Assembly (NCBI GenBank): GCA_017551505.1
Contig: JAFZLL010000008.1
Location: 1 to 64,000 of the forward strand
DNA from: Eubacteriaceae bacterium
GTDB lineage: Bacteria > Bacillota > Clostridia > Eubacteriales > Anaerofustaceae
Direction: 5' to 3'
DNA length: 64,000 bases
Below, piece after piece: positions 2,883 to 26,785 of the stretch. The position numbers and the translations under genes were made by a program. How positions within the stretch are numbered: the stretch's first letter is position 1; every line of letters begins with the position of its first letter. The notes below the pieces were generated by a model. It was not told the DNA's origin. It was given only the letters and a program-made list of their open reading frames with translations, and did not search any database.

Positions 2883-2908
2883 CCCTCCGAAAGGAGGGAT
2901 TTTTTATT
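2883..2908 (+). terminator. Rho-independent terminator of corA
   Basis: The stem CCCTCC-gaaa-GGAGGG is followed by ATTTTTTATTT, nine bases after the corA stop. Confidence 0.85.
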
Positions 2909-3062
2909 TCGCTCAAACCCCGTATCTCCGCCTGCGCTATATCCAGAGCCATCAGGCCGAAATAAATAGAAGCCATTGAAGTTGAATGTTTCCCAATGGC
3001 TTATTAATTATTGCTCAGGGTATGATATAATCATATCAATAATCTACTATCCGGAGAATTAT

Positions 3063-3542
3063 ATGTACATTGTAAAAAGACTGACCGCAGACGACGAAAA
3101 AGGAAAAAGAGACGCCGCAGAGCTGCTCTATATGTGGTGGGGAGACAGGATGCACCCGAAGAAGGAACTTGAGGAATTCTGCATGCACGCTGTTGTGGAT
3201 GGCGGGCTGCCTCAGACTATCATTGCTTACGATGAGGATGGGACTACCCCGCTGGGCATGTGCCAGTTCCTTTTATCCGAAGCATGGTCCCGCCCGGATC
3301 TTTCACCCTGGCTGTCCGACGTATTCGTCCGTGAGGACAGACGCGGCCAGGGGGTATGCAGGGCGATGATGGACAAAGTCGAAGGATATGCAAAGGAACT
3401 CGGGATCCACGATATGTATCTATTTACGCCCCACGTCGGTCTCTATGAGAAATGGGGCTGGGAATACTTTGATGATCTGATAAGGTACCGCGGCGACCAG
3501 GAATACAAGATCCGCCTGATGAGACGGCATTTCGATTTCTGA
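3063..3542 (+). CDS. GNAT family N-acetyltransferase
   Basis: This encodes a 159-aa single-domain protein. The acetyl-CoA binding motif A is visible as VFVREDRRGQGVCRAMM (R/Q-x-x-G-x-G/A type), followed by LYEKWGWEYFDDL, the beta-6/alpha-4 region usual in GNATs. The start at 3063 has GGAG at the right distance. A longer reading frame from 2976 lacks a ribosome-binding site and overlaps an extended -10 promoter (TGATATAAT, 3023-3031). The substrate is unknown. It is a single gene with its own terminator. Confidence 0.85.
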   Translation: MYIVKRLTADDEKGKRDAAELLYMWWGDRMHPKKELEEFCMHAVVDGGLPQTIIAYDEDGTTPLGMCQFLLSEAWSRPDLSPWLSDVFVREDRRGQGVCRAMMDKVEGYAKELGIHDMYLFTPHVGLYEKWGWEYFDDLIRYRGDQEYKIRLMRRHFDF

Positions 3543-4327: not shown

Positions 4328-5472
4328 TGCAGTACAACGATTTTAAGGGAGAAAAAATCTCCGCCCTCGGCTTCGGCTTGATGAGACTGCCTGTAATCGG
4401 CGGTGAAGAGAACCAGAGCGACGTAGACATCGAAAAGGTGCGCGAACTGATTAAGTATGCTGTTGACGCCGGCATCAACTATTTCGACACAGCCTATGTC
4501 TATCACAATGGTTTTTCAGAAAAGGTCCTCGGACAGATTCTCGAGGAAGAAGGACTTAGGGACAAGGTCAATATAGCGACTAAGATGTTCACTTTAGGTG
4601 TTGACAGGCCTGGATTTTCCCCTCAGGCCATGTTCGATGAACAGCTGGAGAGACTCAGGACAGACTGTATCGATTTTTACCTGATCCACGGCCTTCAGGG
4701 CACAAAGTGGGATCTTCTCCGCGATAAATTCGATATAGTCAACCACATGGACAGGCTGAAGGCAGAAGGTAAAGTCCGTTATATGGGATTTTCTTTCCAT
4801 GACAACCTTCCCGCTTTTAAGCACATCATCGACGAGTACGACTGGGATTTCTGCCAGATACAGTTCAACTACATCGACTATCAGACCCAGGCCGGGGAAG
4901 AAGGGCTGGCCTATGCCAGAGAGAAGGGCGTAAAAGTTGCCATTATGGAACCGATCAAAGGCGGAAGCCTGGTCTTCCCGGACAACCCGGATGTCGACCG
5001 GATCATGGCAGATGCGGGACTTTCAGGAGAGACACCTGCAGAGCTCGCTTTCAGATATGTTGCCGACCAGGAAGGACTGCTCACGATCCTTTCAGGCATG
5101 AACGCCATGAATCAGCTTACCGAGAACATCGCCACTTTTGACAAAGCCGTTCCCGGATGCCTGACAGATGCCGAGAAAAAGGCAGTTGATGGCATCAGAG
5201 AGTATATCAACCGCGCTGATGAGATACCCTGCACGACCTGCCGTTACTGTACGAGGGAGTGCCCTAACGAGATAAACATCCCTGCGGCATTCTCCGTATA
5301 CAACAACTCAAAGCGCTACGGCAACCCGAAGTCAGGACTGCGCAATTACAACCGCTCCTGCGCCAATATCAAGGAATGCGTGGAGTGCGGCAGCTGCATA
5401 GATGCATGCCCGCAGAAGCTGAACATTCCGGAGCTTCTAAAACAGGTCCGCGAATATTTCGAAAATGCGTAA
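4327..5472 (+). CDS. Aldo/keto reductase with C-terminal ferredoxin domain
   Basis: The 381-aa protein begins with an aldo/keto reductase barrel (residues 1 to about 290). Asp and Tyr of the active site are seen in FDTAYVYHNG, Lys in ATKMF and His in LIHGLQ. The C-terminal 90 residues hold two cysteine clusters (CTTCRYCTRECP and CVECGSCIDACP), the pattern of a two-[4Fe-4S] ferredoxin-like module. Proteins of this architecture are common in anaerobes and probably link NAD(P)H or a carbonyl substrate to electron transfer through the clusters. The substrate is unknown. It forms an operon with DUF1638 by one-base overlap. Confidence 0.9.
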   Translation: MQYNDFKGEKISALGFGLMRLPVIGGEENQSDVDIEKVRELIKYAVDAGINYFDTAYVYHNGFSEKVLGQILEEEGLRDKVNIATKMFTLGVDRPGFSPQAMFDEQLERLRTDCIDFYLIHGLQGTKWDLLRDKFDIVNHMDRLKAEGKVRYMGFSFHDNLPAFKHIIDEYDWDFCQIQFNYIDYQTQAGEEGLAYAREKGVKVAIMEPIKGGSLVFPDNPDVDRIMADAGLSGETPAELAFRYVADQEGLLTILSGMNAMNQLTENIATFDKAVPGCLTDAEKKAVDGIREYINRADEIPCTTCRYCTRECPNEINIPAAFSVYNNSKRYGNPKSGLRNYNRSCANIKECVECGSCIDACPQKLNIPELLKQVREYFENA

Positions 5473-5499
5473 CGCCGCATAGCCGAACCTGATATAAAT

Positions 5500-5581
5500 A
5501 ATCCCCGTCCAATGAGGTGACCTCCAAAAGTCAGATCAAGAAGCATACCGGAGGAGGTCAGTTCATGAACGGGGATTTTTT
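5500..5581 (+). terminator. Long imperfect hairpin terminator, IS-end-like
   Basis: AATCCCCGT (5500 on) pairs with ACGGGGATT (about 5568-5577), followed by TTTTT. Inside, GAGGTGACCTCC faces GGAGGAGGTCA. The inner part (TGACCTCC, AAAAGTCAGATCAAGAA, then GGAGG and ATG) looks like the left end of an IS3-type element with its first start codon. A related block lies at 27440. It probably terminates the aldo/keto reductase transcript today. Confidence 0.6.
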
Positions 5582-5658
5582 GATTTATTGCAGACCCGCC
5601 TTTTCCTGGCCCAGGATCAATGCATACGTACAGGCGCAGTATAAGATTGTATAATAAG

Positions 5659-5685
5659 AAAAAAAACAAGCCCATCAGGACTTGT
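5659..5685 (-). terminator. Terminator of the SRP RNA gene
   Basis: On the minus strand CAAGTCC-TGAT-GGGCTTG is followed by eight T residues, directly after the 3' end of the SRP RNA. Confidence 0.85.
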
Positions 5686-5691
5686 ATGGAT

Positions 5692-5963
5692 GCCGCGCAC
5701 CCCGGCTTCGAACTTGATTTTAAGCGCAGACCTGACGGGGCTTTGCTCCGGCCAGGCACCTTCGCGGCACGTCTGCATTTCCGTATGCCGCTGCTTTCTT
5801 CCGAACCTGACGGGGTTTGCGGAAGCCGACTGCACGAAACCCAACCATCAATACAAAGTATTCCGCCGCTCTTGACGCCAAAACAGCTTCTCAGCCGGGG
5901 GATCGGGCCCCGATATAGCGGATTTCGGGTACAGGGCGCCGCTAGTTCCCCGCTTGGCGCGGC
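5692..5963 (-). ncRNA. ffs: Signal recognition particle RNA, large (Bacillus-type)
   Basis: On the minus strand this 272-nt RNA has matching ends (GCCGCGC at 5', GCGCGGC at 3'). The Alu-domain features of Gram-positive SRP RNAs follow (AAGCGGGGAACTAGCGGCGCCC, split by a CCCGAAATCCGCTATA-like segment). The S-domain apical region holds GGTTCGGAAGAAAGCAGC, close to the highly conserved GGTCCGGAAGGAAGCAGC Ffh-binding core, with the later GGTGCCTGGC. The RNA binds Ffh and directs membrane proteins to FtsY and SecYEG. Promoter and terminator fit exactly. Overlapping reading frames on both strands here are spurious. Confidence 0.95.
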
Positions 5964-22399: not shown

Positions 22400-22447
22400 T
22401 ACGGCCTCAAGGCTGCGAGTCGTGCACCTCAGTTCAGCAAGAGATAA
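22400..22447 (+). pseudogene. Displaced rpsI 3'-end fragment
   Basis: In frame, these bases read [15 protein letters not shown] and stop, against [15 protein letters not shown] at the end of rpsI. No homology to rpsI extends upstream. Such a stub is what site-specific integration into the 3' end of rpsI leaves behind: the element rebuilds the gene at one junction and the old end remains at the other. The fragment shares the 12-base run CAGTTCAGCAAG with rpsI. Confidence 0.8.
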
Positions 22448-22458
22448 GGAAATTCTGC
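22437..22458 (+). repeat. att-like direct repeat, copy 1
   Basis: The 22 bases beginning GCAAGAGATAAGGAAATT are repeated exactly at 26736-26757. With flanks, 22430-22458 matches 26729-26757 in 26 of 29 positions, including the end of the displaced rpsI fragment. The repeats enclose 4.3 kb. Confidence 0.75.
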
Positions 22459-22623
22459 AAGCGATAATTGGAGTTGTTTTGAAAGATGACCGGGATTATT
22501 AAAATGAGCAGTTCAACTTTTGTAGATTCAACAACAGTTCGTCAAGTAGAATTGGGCAGATGGTTTTATCTGCGTTAAAACGGTTAAAGGCTGCCCCGCT
22601 AAGGATCCAATGTGCAAAACAGC

Positions 22624-22650
22624 ATTCCAACGCGTTTAACGCGTTGGAAT
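22624..22650. repeat. Palindrome upstream of the AlbA_2 gene
   Basis: ATTCCAACGCGTT and AACGCGTTGGAAT form 13-bp arms around one base. The palindrome ends two bases before the -35 box of the following gene. A nearly identical palindrome lies just after that gene (24358-24382). It is likely an operator or an element boundary. Confidence 0.75.
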
Positions 22651-22652
22651 GA

Positions 22653-22681
22653 TTGACTTTAACGCAAACTTGTGATAGAAT
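22653..22681 (+). promoter_or_regulatory. Promoter of the AlbA_2 gene
   Basis: TTGACT (22653-22658) and TAGAAT (22676-22681) are 17 bp apart. The spacer contains TTTAACGC, a half-site of the adjoining palindrome. Confidence 0.75.
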
Positions 22682-22699
22682 GCGTTCGGAGGTGATATA

Positions 22700-24349
22700 A
22701 TGCTGCCTAAAAAAGAGACCTTAACCATTGAATTCAAAAGTGATCAAAAGAAACTATCTGATTCAGAGATATTTGAAGCTGTCGTCGCCTTTGCCAATAC
22801 TGAGGGAGGCGAGCTTTACCTTGGTATCGAGGATAACGGTGAAGTGACCGGCGTCCATAAAGCACACGAAAACACTGCAACGGTATGTGCTTTCATTGCA
22901 AATAACACAATTCCTCCTGTATCTGTTAGAGCAGAAATAGTTGATGATATTCTTCCGGTCTTAAAGATTTCTGTGCCTAAAACCTACAGTGGTATTACTG
23001 CTACGGTTGCAGGAAAAACGCTTCACAGACAGTTGAAAGCAGATGGAGAACCCGAGAATGTCCCAATGTATCCTACTGCTTTTGCAACAAGACTATCAGA
23101 CCTTCGGCTTTTGGATTATTCTGCAATGCCTGTGCTTCAGAGTGGCATTGAAGATTTTGATCCTATAGAGGTGCAGCGCTTACGGCAATTAGTCACATCT
23201 TATAACGGAGAAAAGAATCTTTTAGATCTTACTGACGAGGATCTTTTTAAGGCGCTTGGATTGGTTCGCGAGCAAAACAATACCTTATATCCCACAATAA
23301 CGGGTATCCTCCTGATCGGTAAGGTTGAGGCTATAAAGCGTCATATTCCCACCCATGCCACAGTATTCCAGGTATTGGAAGGAACTGAAGTCAGAAATAA
23401 TGATGATTATGTTTTACCCTTGCTTCAGACAATAGAGCGTCTGAATAACAGCCTCGAAGCCCGTAATCCTGAACAGGAAATTGAAATGGGATTGTTTAGG
23501 TATGCAATACCGGAGTTTGATAAACGGGCTATTAGAGAAGCCTTGGTCAACGCATTTAGTCATCGGGATTATTCAAAGATGGGCCGTGTGAGGGTAACGA
23601 TCAACGATGAAGGCCTGACAATTGCTAACCCCGGGGGCTTTATTGAGGGTGTTTCCATTAACAATCTTCTGACGGCTGAACCTCACGGAAGAAATCCTCA
23701 GTTGGCAGATGCGTTGAAGCGAATTGGCCTTGCAGAGAGAACAGGAAGAGGTATTGATAGAATATATGAAGGGTCGCTAATCTTTGGAAGACCCTTGCCG
23801 GATTACTCGGCAAGCACATCGGTAACAGTCTCCTTATTTATTCAGCGCAGTAAACCTGACAGGCAAATCGCCCAACTGGTAGCCAATGAGCAGAATCGAC
23901 TTGGGCGACCTCTTTCACTTAATACTTTATTAGTGCTGAACACACTAAAAGATATTCCGAAATCTACGGTAAGCCAGATTGCTGAAGCAATAAACATCTC
24001 AGATACGGCAGTTAAAGGAATCCTGGACACTTCAGTAGAAGCTGGTATAGTCGACGGATTCGGAAATGGCAAAAATAGAACCTATATTTTGTCGCCGAAG
24101 GTCTACAGGACACAAGCTGGAAGGATTGGCTATGTCCGGCAAGCCGATATTGACGAGACACGGTATCCGGAACTAATTATCAACCTTGCGAAGAATACAG
24201 ATTTTCTGTCCAGAGCGGATGTCGTTCAATTATTGCATGTTAGTCCGTCGAAAGCATACACCCTATTGAAAAAACTGGTTTCACAAGGAGTATTAGAGCC
24301 TGTTAACAAGGGACACTATGCTAAATATCGATATGTCGGGAAACGTTAA
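22700..24349 (+). CDS. AlbA_2/Schlafen-type ATP-binding protein with winged helices
   Basis: This is a 549-aa protein. Residues about 5-120 are an AlbA_2 (divergent AAA_4, Schlafen-like) domain: LTIEFKSDQKKLSDSEI, then VVAFANTEGGELYLGIEDNGEV. Residues about 270-370 are a GHKL-type ATPase-like part (REALVNAFSHRDYS, ITINDEGLTIANPGG-like, RTGRGIDRIYEG). Two helix-turn-helix units follow (KSTVSQIAEAINISDTAVKGIL and RADVVQLLHVSPSKAYTLLKKL). Such proteins are often called RecG-like or transcriptional regulators and occur on mobile elements. The gene is more AT-rich than its neighbours and is bracketed by palindromes. Autoregulation is inferred. Confidence 0.85.
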   Translation: MLPKKETLTIEFKSDQKKLSDSEIFEAVVAFANTEGGELYLGIEDNGEVTGVHKAHENTATVCAFIANNTIPPVSVRAEIVDDILPVLKISVPKTYSGITATVAGKTLHRQLKADGEPENVPMYPTAFATRLSDLRLLDYSAMPVLQSGIEDFDPIEVQRLRQLVTSYNGEKNLLDLTDEDLFKALGLVREQNNTLYPTITGILLIGKVEAIKRHIPTHATVFQVLEGTEVRNNDDYVLPLLQTIERLNNSLEARNPEQEIEMGLFRYAIPEFDKRAIREALVNAFSHRDYSKMGRVRVTINDEGLTIANPGGFIEGVSINNLLTAEPHGRNPQLADALKRIGLAERTGRGIDRIYEGSLIFGRPLPDYSASTSVTVSLFIQRSKPDRQIAQLVANEQNRLGRPLSLNTLLVLNTLKDIPKSTVSQIAEAINISDTAVKGILDTSVEAGIVDGFGNGKNRTYILSPKVYRTQAGRIGYVRQADIDETRYPELIINLAKNTDFLSRADVVQLLHVSPSKAYTLLKKLVSQGVLEPVNKGHYAKYRYVGKR

Positions 24350-24356
24350 TGCAATG

Positions 24357-24382
24357 ATTCCAACGCGTTGAACGCGTTGGAA
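24357..24382. repeat. Palindrome downstream of the AlbA_2 gene
   Basis: TTCCAACGCGTT and AACGCGTTGGAA form perfect 12-bp arms around G, starting eight bases after the stop codon. It differs from the upstream copy only at the centre and edges. It has no T run on the plus strand, so it is not an ordinary terminator. The following 130 bases, read on the minus strand, encode a hydrophobic stretch (FYGVMVSVAALFPVMIVLMIM), possibly part of a broken membrane protein. Confidence 0.7.
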
Positions 24383-24516
24383 ATTAAAAGAATTATACCG
24401 TCGTTCATGATCATGAGCACAATCATTACCGGGAAGAGGGCAGCCACGGACACCATCACTCCATAAAAGAACTGGAGCAGGAGCTGCAGACTCACAGCTG
24501 AAAAGGAAGGAAAATC

Positions 24517-24843
24517 ATGGCTATCACAGTGAATCTTAGATATACCGGCCAAAACGGCGCTGCCCGGAAGTTTGCCGAAGAGATGACCGCCGGCGGAACG
24601 GTTGCAGCCATCCGGGCTGAAGCCGGGAATCTGCGCTATGAGTATTATCAGCCGCTTGACGATCCGGAGACCATATTGCTGATCGACAGTTGGACGGATC
24701 AGGAAGCGATCGATGTTCATCACGCTTCTCCGATGATGGCGACGATTGCAGCACTCAGGGAGAAGTACGATCTACATATGACCGTGGAACGGTTTGTGAG
24801 TGTGGAAGAAAACATTGAAGACGAGAGGTTTGTCAGAAGATGA
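24517..24843 (+). CDS. Putative quinol monooxygenase (ABM domain)
   Basis: The 108-aa protein has one antibiotic-biosynthesis-monooxygenase fold: ITVNLRYTGQNGAARKFAEEM, LRYEYYQPLDDPETILLIDSWTD, then DVHHASPMM. The paired ferredoxin-like strands and the HH-x2-SP motif match the YgiN group, which may oxidise quinols without a cofactor. AAGGAAGG lies upstream. Its stop overlaps the start of the broken GNAT gene, so they formed one operon with the flavodoxin that follows. Confidence 0.85.
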   Translation: MAITVNLRYTGQNGAARKFAEEMTAGGTVAAIRAEAGNLRYEYYQPLDDPETILLIDSWTDQEAIDVHHASPMMATIAALREKYDLHMTVERFVSVEENIEDERFVRR

Positions 24844-25378
24844 TCGAGCTAAAACCGTTGGCTCCCTCGGACCGAGAGCAGTTTATCAAAGACAACCAGG
24901 AAGCCTTCAACTATGGCGCCCTGGAGGAATTCGGCCGCCGGGATGATCACTTCGAAGAAGAAGGCGAGATCATCTCCCGTGAGACGATCGAAGCATCCAT
25001 CGACCGCGGTGAGGCTTACCGGATTATGCAGGAGATGAGCCGGTCGGAGGCGTGATCATCAAAGTGGATGGAGAGCGCGGAGATTTGGATATCCTCTTTG
25101 TGTCTCCCCGTGTTCACAGCAAGGGCATCGGTTATGCGGTCTGGTGCGCTGTAGAGCAGCTCCATCCGGAGGTGACCGTCTGGGAGACCGTCACGCCGTA
25201 TTTTGAGAAGCGGAATATCCATTTCTATGTGAACCGCTGTGGGTTCCATATCGTAGAGTTTTTTAACAGCCATCATCCTGATCCGAACGATCCCGATATG
25301 GCAGAGCAAATGGACGAGCAGTTCCCGGACGGAATGTTCCGATTTGAGAAGTGGATCGAAAGAAAGGACGAGAAATGA
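24840..25378 (+). pseudogene. GNAT acetyltransferase, frameshifted
   Basis: Two overlapping frames together make one GNAT. 24840-25055 gives MIELKPLAPSDREQFIKDNQ to GEAYRIMQ, and 25052-25378 continues with VIIKVDGERGDLDILFVSP, VHSKGIGYAVW (acetyl-CoA loop), and NRCGFHIVEFF. Between them, near 25028-25031, one lost base turns a D-E-P-V-G-G-type segment into MSRSEA and a stop. The rest is intact and in register, so decay is recent or a sequencing error is possible. Confidence 0.8.
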
Positions 25379-25860
25379 GCAAGAGTCTGATCATCTATTT
25401 CAGCAGGGCTGACGAGAACTATGCAGTGGGCTGGATCGACAAGGGCAACACCGAGATCGTAGCGGAATTCGTGCAGGAGCTGACCGGCGCGGACATGTTC
25501 AAGGTCGAACCGGCCGTGCCTTATGCCAGGGACTACAACACCTGCATCAAGGAGGCAAAGCAGCGGATCGGCAACGCGCCGATCAAGGAAAAGCTGACGG
25601 ACATTTCCGCCTACGATACCGTATTCATCATGAGCCCGATCTACTGGGGCACTTATGCGCCGGAGATGGAGACGGCTCTGGCCGGACTGGACTTCACCGG
25701 AAAGACGGTACGCGTCATCAGCACCCACGAAGGCTCCGGCCTTGCGGGCATGCTTTCCGACGTAAAGAGAATGTGCAAGGGAGCAAACGTGAAGCCGGGA
25801 CTTGCCATCAAGGGCTCGCAGGCGAAGAAGTCGAAGCAGAAAGTGGCTGAATGGCTGTAA
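25375..25860 (+). CDS. Flavodoxin
   Basis: The 161-aa protein has flavodoxin features: LIIYFSRADENYAVG at the phosphate loop, MSPIYWGTYAPEMETAL over the flavin ring, and STHEGSGLAGML. It is of the same broad group as the proteins at 7380 and in other Clostridia (flavodoxin_4). The start overlaps the end of the broken GNAT gene (ATGA). The context of a quinol monooxygenase suggests a small flavin/quinone redox set; the exact partner is unknown. Confidence 0.9.
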   Translation: MSKSLIIYFSRADENYAVGWIDKGNTEIVAEFVQELTGADMFKVEPAVPYARDYNTCIKEAKQRIGNAPIKEKLTDISAYDTVFIMSPIYWGTYAPEMETALAGLDFTGKTVRVISTHEGSGLAGMLSDVKRMCKGANVKPGLAIKGSQAKKSKQKVAEWL

Positions 25861-25864
25861 AGAT

Positions 25865-26161: not shown

Positions 26162-26735
26162 TTGAAAACACCTCTTTGGGTGATCACCACGTCATATGCA
26201 GCAAAACAGGCTCGCTGCAATATGGTGAAATTCACCATTCAAAGGGGCAGTTCTACTTGAAGCGCTCAAGTATCAGCGACGTGTCCGATGCGGCTGAAAG
26301 CATTGCAAATATAATGTATTTTTGCGGCTCACATTCTTAAAAACGTTTTTCTCGCGAATTTCTGGAGCCTTGAAAAAAGCTGCCTTTGCGCTATATAATG
26401 AAGTGTACAGGCTTACTGTTATGCAGCAATCTGATTTTTGACATCGATTCTTATCAAGACCGTTGTGCTCCTTTTTGCTCGTGCTGCATACAGCCGTCAT
26501 CATAAACGCCATCATAAGGGAAAAATAGTGAGGATCCCTGCACGGTATGCAGCAGTCCGCCGCCCTGGGATGCGGTAGGCATGAAGCACTTATACAGCAG
26601 ATCCTCACTCCATACAGGGTTTGAGTTGTAACCAGGGATCACGATTTTTGCTTACTGAAACCGCCAGAATCAAGCAAAACCGAAAAACCATCTCAGTCAT
26701 TTTAGTAGGGTTTTCGGAAGTGTCTGGCAGTCTTG
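26162..26735. other. Non-coding region with possible protein relic
   Basis: No gene with a ribosome-binding site was found. ATGGTGAA-A-TTCACCAT (26222-26238) is a perfect 8-bp-arm palindrome. On the minus strand 26500-26642 reads GYNSNPVWSEDLLYKCFMP and SLFFPYDGVYDDG, which looks like a piece of a real protein, but I cannot name it. AT content rises here compared with the operon before it. Confidence 0.4.
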
Positions 26736-26757
26736 CAAGAGATAAGGAAATTCTGCT
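26736..26757 (+). repeat. att-like direct repeat, copy 2
   Basis: This is an exact 22-base copy of 22437-22458. Read in frame it still ends CKR and stop, like the rpsI C-terminus (SKR and stop), so both copies seem to derive from the rpsI 3' end. Confidence 0.75.
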
Positions 26758-26785
26758 AGTGTTAATCGAGTCTTACAAGAATGCG

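Follow-up and report, generated by a model that had tools for sequence, protein, structure and literature searches.

A probable anti-virus Schlafen gene with matching putative operator sites at both ends: a candidate one-gene unit of horizontal spread

The Schlafen-GHKL-winged-helix architecture is already known. A Schlafen RNase fused to a minimal histidine kinase and a winged helix-turn-helix (wHTH) was described in association with BREX and proposed to act as an abortive-infection RNase (PMC12839542), while TrlG of Photorhabdus, a homologue, restricts growth at 36°C (PMC7554251). The RNase active site of Schlafen13 is formed by E205, E210 and D248 (PMC5862951). Stand-alone genes of the Schlafen-GHKL-wHTH type are widespread and poorly understood. 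A stand-alone unit of this kind that is marked at both ends appears to be undescribed in open-licence papers, preprints excluded, and one class with which such a unit can be compared is that of the tRNA-targeted integrative elements and satellites.

The gene analyzed here (Table 1) is located in a 64-kb stretch of DNA, hereafter the window, and lies within a unit of 1.76 kb. Our data suggest that this package, likely an anti-virus gene carrying its own switch and borders, moves between unrelated gut bacteria. The earlier note had described a gene of the AlbA_2/Schlafen type, AT-rich against its surroundings and bracketed by two palindromes, and this description proved accurate: a Pfam match confirms the domain, both palindromes are exact (with one central base between the TTCCAACGCGTT and AACGCGTTGGAA arms), three bases separate the left one from the -35 box, a gap of eight bases lies between the stop codon and the right one, and the G+C content of the gene is 43.2% vs. 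51.0% for the window, a value as low being found in 2.4% of equal-sized windows. The TTCCAACGCGTT arm occurs four times in 64 kb vs. 0.25 occurrences expected (at most one mismatch), and the 25-mer palindrome was found in two places in the whole 1.56-Mb genome, i.e., at the two ends of the gene and nowhere else.

Table 1. Location of the unit and its features in the window.
Feature	Position	Strand	Basis or remark
Single-gene unit, left to right palindrome	22624..24382	+	DNA similarity borders with close relatives
Left palindrome TTCCAACGCGTT-T-AACGCGTTGGAA	22625..22649	.	Exact; 27 bp counting A/T at 22624/22650
Promoter TTGACT-17-TAGAAT	22653..22681	+	17-bp-spaced promoter found again in most relatives
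-35 box TTGACT	22653..22658		Spacer of 17 bp to TAGAAT
TAGAAT	22676..22681		
Second, degenerate putative operator AACGC-N6-GTGAT	22661..22676	.	Alignment of upstream regions
Ribosome-binding site GGAGGTG	22688..22694	+	Read from sequence
Gene of the 549-aa Schlafen-GHKL-winged-helix protein	22700..24349	+	Stop codon 24347-24349
SLFN_AlbA_2 domain, residues 6-108	22715..23023	+	Pfam, E 9e-16
HATPase_c_4 (GHKL-like) domain, residues 296-377	23585..23830	+	Pfam
Winged HTH 1, residues 408-451	23921..24052	+	Pfam, AlphaFold model
Winged HTH 2, residues 491-541	24170..24322	+	Pfam, AlphaFold model
Right palindrome TTCCAACGCGTT-G-AACGCGTTGGAA	24358..24382	.	Exact

A hydrophobic minus-strand frame, previously thought to be interrupted at the right palindrome, continues through it (ORF 24346-24723); it overlaps the plus-strand gene 24517-24843, the homologue of which in a family member is 70% identical, and is probably spurious. 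A His-rich frame, VHDHEHNHYREEGSHGHHHSIKELEQELQTHS followed by a stop codon, occupies 24388-24501 on the plus strand; it has no start, the next gene begins 16 bases further on, and the frame is possibly the tail of a gene severed at the right end of the unit. A pair of GNAT and flavodoxin-like genes is present twice in the source genome (window 24835-25863 and G000:C24:1685-2716, locus L055; 84% identical DNA), both copies being followed by a non-coding repeat of ~190 bp; a candidate empty site on contig C24, where the right flank recurs, was dismissed as being this paralogous gene pair. A 32-bp piece to the left of the unit (22437-22468) resembles a region downstream of the window copy (26735-26766).

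The AlbA_2, HATPase_c_4, HTH_24 and HTH_IclR matches all exceeded the Pfam cut-offs, giving the domain order AlbA_2, HATPase_c_4, winged HTH. Residues E6, E11 and E44 do not vary among 33 aligned sequences. A profile search aligned them with E205, E210 and D248 in the ES....EFK...GVDD segment of SLFN13, the third residue being E here instead of D. The AlphaFold model (mean pLDDT 87) found its best fold match in 3LMM, followed by Schlafen13 and other Schlafens. The N-terminal domain is probably a Schlafen-type RNase used in phage defence. Inside the unit, the Pfam search revealed no transposase, recombinase or integrase domain above its cut-off.

Comparison with 46 retrieved relatives revealed putative recognition sites throughout the family. 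Half-sites AACGC, AACAC and AATGC are enriched in 37 members both upstream of the gene (mean 4.7 per 110 bp, the controls having 0.57) and in the 60 bp past the stop codon (mean 2.9 vs. 0.31). Many members possess two upstream inverted repeats 31–32 bp apart, one before the -35 box and the other, with the family consensus AACGC-N6-GTGTT at about -39, between -35 and -10; the window copy has kept the first, while its second one is degenerate. Half-sites were also observed as direct repeats and within the promoter. Past the stop codon of L043, a 37%-identical relative from a Methanothrix bin, there is an array of 8–10 copies of AATGCACGGA (L043 3670-3790). The motif variants track the clade of the protein at both ends: L018 and L019 fall into one group in the tree, and in both AACTC replaces AACGC on either side of the gene. 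Moreover, the left and right ends of the same unit are more alike than the ends of different units (mean 12.3 vs. a maximum of 10.4 in 5000 permutations with 32 units, a few of which drive much of the effect). A recognisable right-hand site is absent in about a quarter of the relatives, including the Alloscardovia member discussed below, hence this site is not required. As in autoregulated repressors, the promoter thus contains the gene's own putative operator, which follows the clade of the protein. Autoregulation by the winged helices acting on repeated half-sites in their own promoter is an inference with good support, and very likely these helices bind the half-sites and repress that promoter. 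The family-wide recognition sequence provides an immediate handle for binding and induction assays, and the clade-specific switches of the motif at both ends offer a natural set for reading winged-helix specificity.

The palindrome itself was searched for in 80 genomes with up to two mismatches, in its CCAACGCGTT motif form only. It was present in 11 of the 45 genomes reached through the gene and in none of the 35 others, and all its places but one were at the gene's ends; the remaining one, in G027, has two mismatches and is a coding coincidence, located inside a coding sequence. Palindromes unconnected with this gene family, named in the earlier note as grounds for abandoning the association, were looked for across these 80 genomes, and the linkage withstood the search.

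The same sites lie close to the limits of DNA similarity. Similarity of the window copy starts at about 22625–22627 with L004, L005, L006, L008 and L021 and at about 22586 with L003, i.e., ~40 bp further to the left, and ends at 24381–24382 with close relatives. In many pairs with 74–89% identity, the similar stretch reaches from about -73 to +33–55 relative to the gene and is lost at, or close to, the outer site edges; for close pairs the border is mostly offset from the sites by no more than about 45 bp, and in a few by more. Similarity is ~30 bp longer on the right in the pair L041 and L048; for L034 and L035 (98.7% identical), the left flanks differ from -84 outwards, but ~220 bp outside the right sites are in common; longer common flanks, reaching the 3' end of tRNA-Met, are seen in L033 and L037. 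Flanks are unrelated even in pairs with 82–89% identical DNA, and no Pfam family was represented by more than 3 of the 71 neighbours, i.e., the gene has no recurrent partner. In the phylogenetic tree, members from Synergistota and Planctomycetota nest with those of Bacillota, and an Actinomycetota isolate (Alloscardovia) is placed among Bacillota, its own fork being less well supported. Most hosts are metagenome bins, in which a wrongly assigned contig can look like transfer, but those from Pyramidobacter and Alloscardovia are isolates. A single copy is present in each of the 42 matching genomes (split hits counted as one). Neither a close relative nor the palindrome was found on plasmids (E limit 1e-40), in phage records or on viral contigs at the limits used. 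An integrase gene lies beside L035, outside the unit. Of the attributes of insertion sequences, the window copy displays matching terminal repeats, in the form of the palindromes at both ends; an ordinary insertion sequence was rejected as a candidate, there being no transposase and a single copy per genome instead of several.

Several loci retain traces of how the gene may have arrived. In Alloscardovia macacae (L022), the gene, together with an AbiEi-like gene, is located between two genes that are directly adjacent in four congeners, which represents an empty site. The suggestion that empty sites would keep one palindrome failed here, as none was found in the four Alloscardovia empty junctions. 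For L036, L014 and L019, candidate empty sites were dismissed, the searches having returned only rearranged or partial flanks. For the window copy no empty site was found in one other genome of the genus (the family members were too distant), and no flanking duplication adjoins it, the only repeat shared by its flanks being of 22 bp at -263 and +2385. In L025, copies of the tRNA-Thr 3' end form direct repeats on both sides of the gene, the right palindrome abutting one tRNA copy. The region L025 2047-4800 consists of tandem intervals, one with a RelB/YefM-YoeB-like pair and the other with the Schlafen gene, each ending in a copy of the tRNA 3' end; no integrase was found inside these intervals. 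Direct repeats of 67 bp occur on both sides of the gene in L026. In L032 (Pyramidobacter sp. C12-8) the Schlafen gene is flanked by galE copies (1724-2809 and 4755-5841; 97% identity over 1.09 kb, with 981 bp identical), a duplication which may have other causes. The tRNA 3'-end pattern was limited to L019, L025, L033 and L037, with a tmRNA near L011; a general association with tRNA genes was accordingly rejected, most copies, that of the window included, not being located at a tRNA. With respect to islands and satellites, the unit has direct att-type repeats in L025 and L026 and none at the window copy, and no integrase of its own. Internally deleted copies with retained ends were found at L006 and L045: in the latter (2900-3480) the palindrome and promoter are fused to the last ~160 codons, and the former is an internally deleted mini-copy and not a tandem full copy.

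The earlier note had offered self-repression and a one-gene mobile unit as alternatives; the evidence favours their combination. We consider it reasonably probable that this is an autoregulated Schlafen-RNase gene spreading horizontally as a one-gene unit, with putative operator sites at both ends, and recombined in trans. The Schlafen nuclease domain would then be a growth-arrest effector in phage defence, probably cutting tRNA or rRNA. The winged helices, in dimeric or tetrameric form, would occupy AACGC-type half-sites on the promoter, where the site before the -35 box and that between -35 and -10 are 31–32 bp apart, and would also occupy the matching site past the stop codon; bound to the promoter, the protein would repress its own transcription until released by a signal. 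Since both borders consist of such sites, the gene and its switch would travel together in any transfer spanning them. For some copies, tRNA 3' ends or direct repeats of another kind may have served as the places of recombination, the enzyme for which would act in trans. The combined reading is favoured by the sites in both flanks family-wide, their linkage to the gene, the sharp borders with unrelated flanks, the cross-phylum nesting, the empty site in four Alloscardovia species, the direct repeats bounding L025 and L026 and the lack of a transposase. It is weakened by the missing right-hand sites and variable borders, by a copy number unlike that of ordinary transposons, by the AbiEi-like gene inserted along with it in Alloscardovia, by the lack of an empty site or target duplication at the window copy, and by the many hosts that are bins. 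If correct, it illustrates a way for a probable defence gene to spread by itself across phyla, taking its switch along and encoding no recombinase.

Autoregulation without a specialised unit, in which the palindromes are operators (the downstream one serving looping or cooperative repression) and the gene spreads by ordinary horizontal transfer, is the most serious of the rival explanations, yet doubtful. It accounts for operators that overlap the promoter, for ends alike in sequence, for the persistence of members devoid of right-hand sites, for the single copy and for the missing recombinase; similarity would end at the operators because nothing further out is under selection. However, at the 82–89% DNA identity of the window with L003 and L004, unconstrained flanks should still align, while similarity in fact ends sharply at the palindromes or close to them, and the direct repeats around the gene in L025 and L026 are left aside. 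Alternatively, the palindromes could have nothing to do with the protein and be hairpins acting in RNA or in transcription termination. They are strong predicted hairpins, and the left one was called terminator-like on both strands, but the right one was rejected as an intrinsic terminator because no T-run follows it, and such hairpins explain neither the half-sites found as direct repeats and inside the promoter nor motif variants that track the clade of the protein at both ends; this makes the explanation improbable. The Rfam search gave only a sub-threshold chance match. Slighter still is the chance that the unit moves itself, the winged helices guiding the Schlafen nuclease to cut or join its own palindromic hairpin ends, with one copy per cell allowed. 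The acidic triad is kept, sites are present at both ends, internally deleted copies retain their ends, and predicted folding is strong; moreover, the palindrome reaches 37 bp in close relatives, with covariation of its outer arms: of 150 outer pairs, 121 form, against at most 116 in 20,000 shuffles, a count which relatedness can inflate, while strand-switch copying can perfect palindromes without selection. In the window, on the other hand, only the inner arms are kept, the outer ones being degenerate beyond 12–14 bp, as they are in several relatives; no transposase or recombinase domain, no second copy in a genome and no terminal target duplication was seen in the searches described above; and relatives of the same architecture are located in multi-gene defence loci. 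That the protein moves its own gene is thus unlikely, although a self-mobilising Schlafen protein, if real, would represent a transposase-like family unrelated to known ones.

Compared with known systems, the protein has its N-terminal domain and three acidic positions in common with Schlafen13 (5YD0; PMC5862951), but the third of these is E here and D there, and Schlafen13 is an animal protein with a two-lobed N-domain, the alignment covering only profile residues 1-69. The best match in both sequence and fold, with a similar domain order, is 3LMM (DIP2311 of Corynebacterium diphtheriae, from structural genomics), which is 19% identical and was deposited as uncharacterised. Like tRNA-targeted integrative elements and satellites, the L025 copy is bounded by repeats of a tRNA 3' end, whereas the unit has no integrase and most of its copies, including that of the window, lie elsewhere than at a tRNA. 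TrlG resembles the window protein in combining AlbA_2 with HATPase_c_4, is growth-restricting and has a patchy distribution; it belongs, however, to a three-gene operon with trlF and trlR, and palindromes are unmentioned in the text of that report (PMC7554251), whereas the gene described here is alone. Finally, the BREX-associated Schlafen RNase has the same domain order, Schlafen/AlbA_2, GHKL-type ATPase and winged helix, but its genes adjoin BREX genes (PMC12839542), while the present gene, with no recurrent neighbour, stands by itself with sites at both ends.
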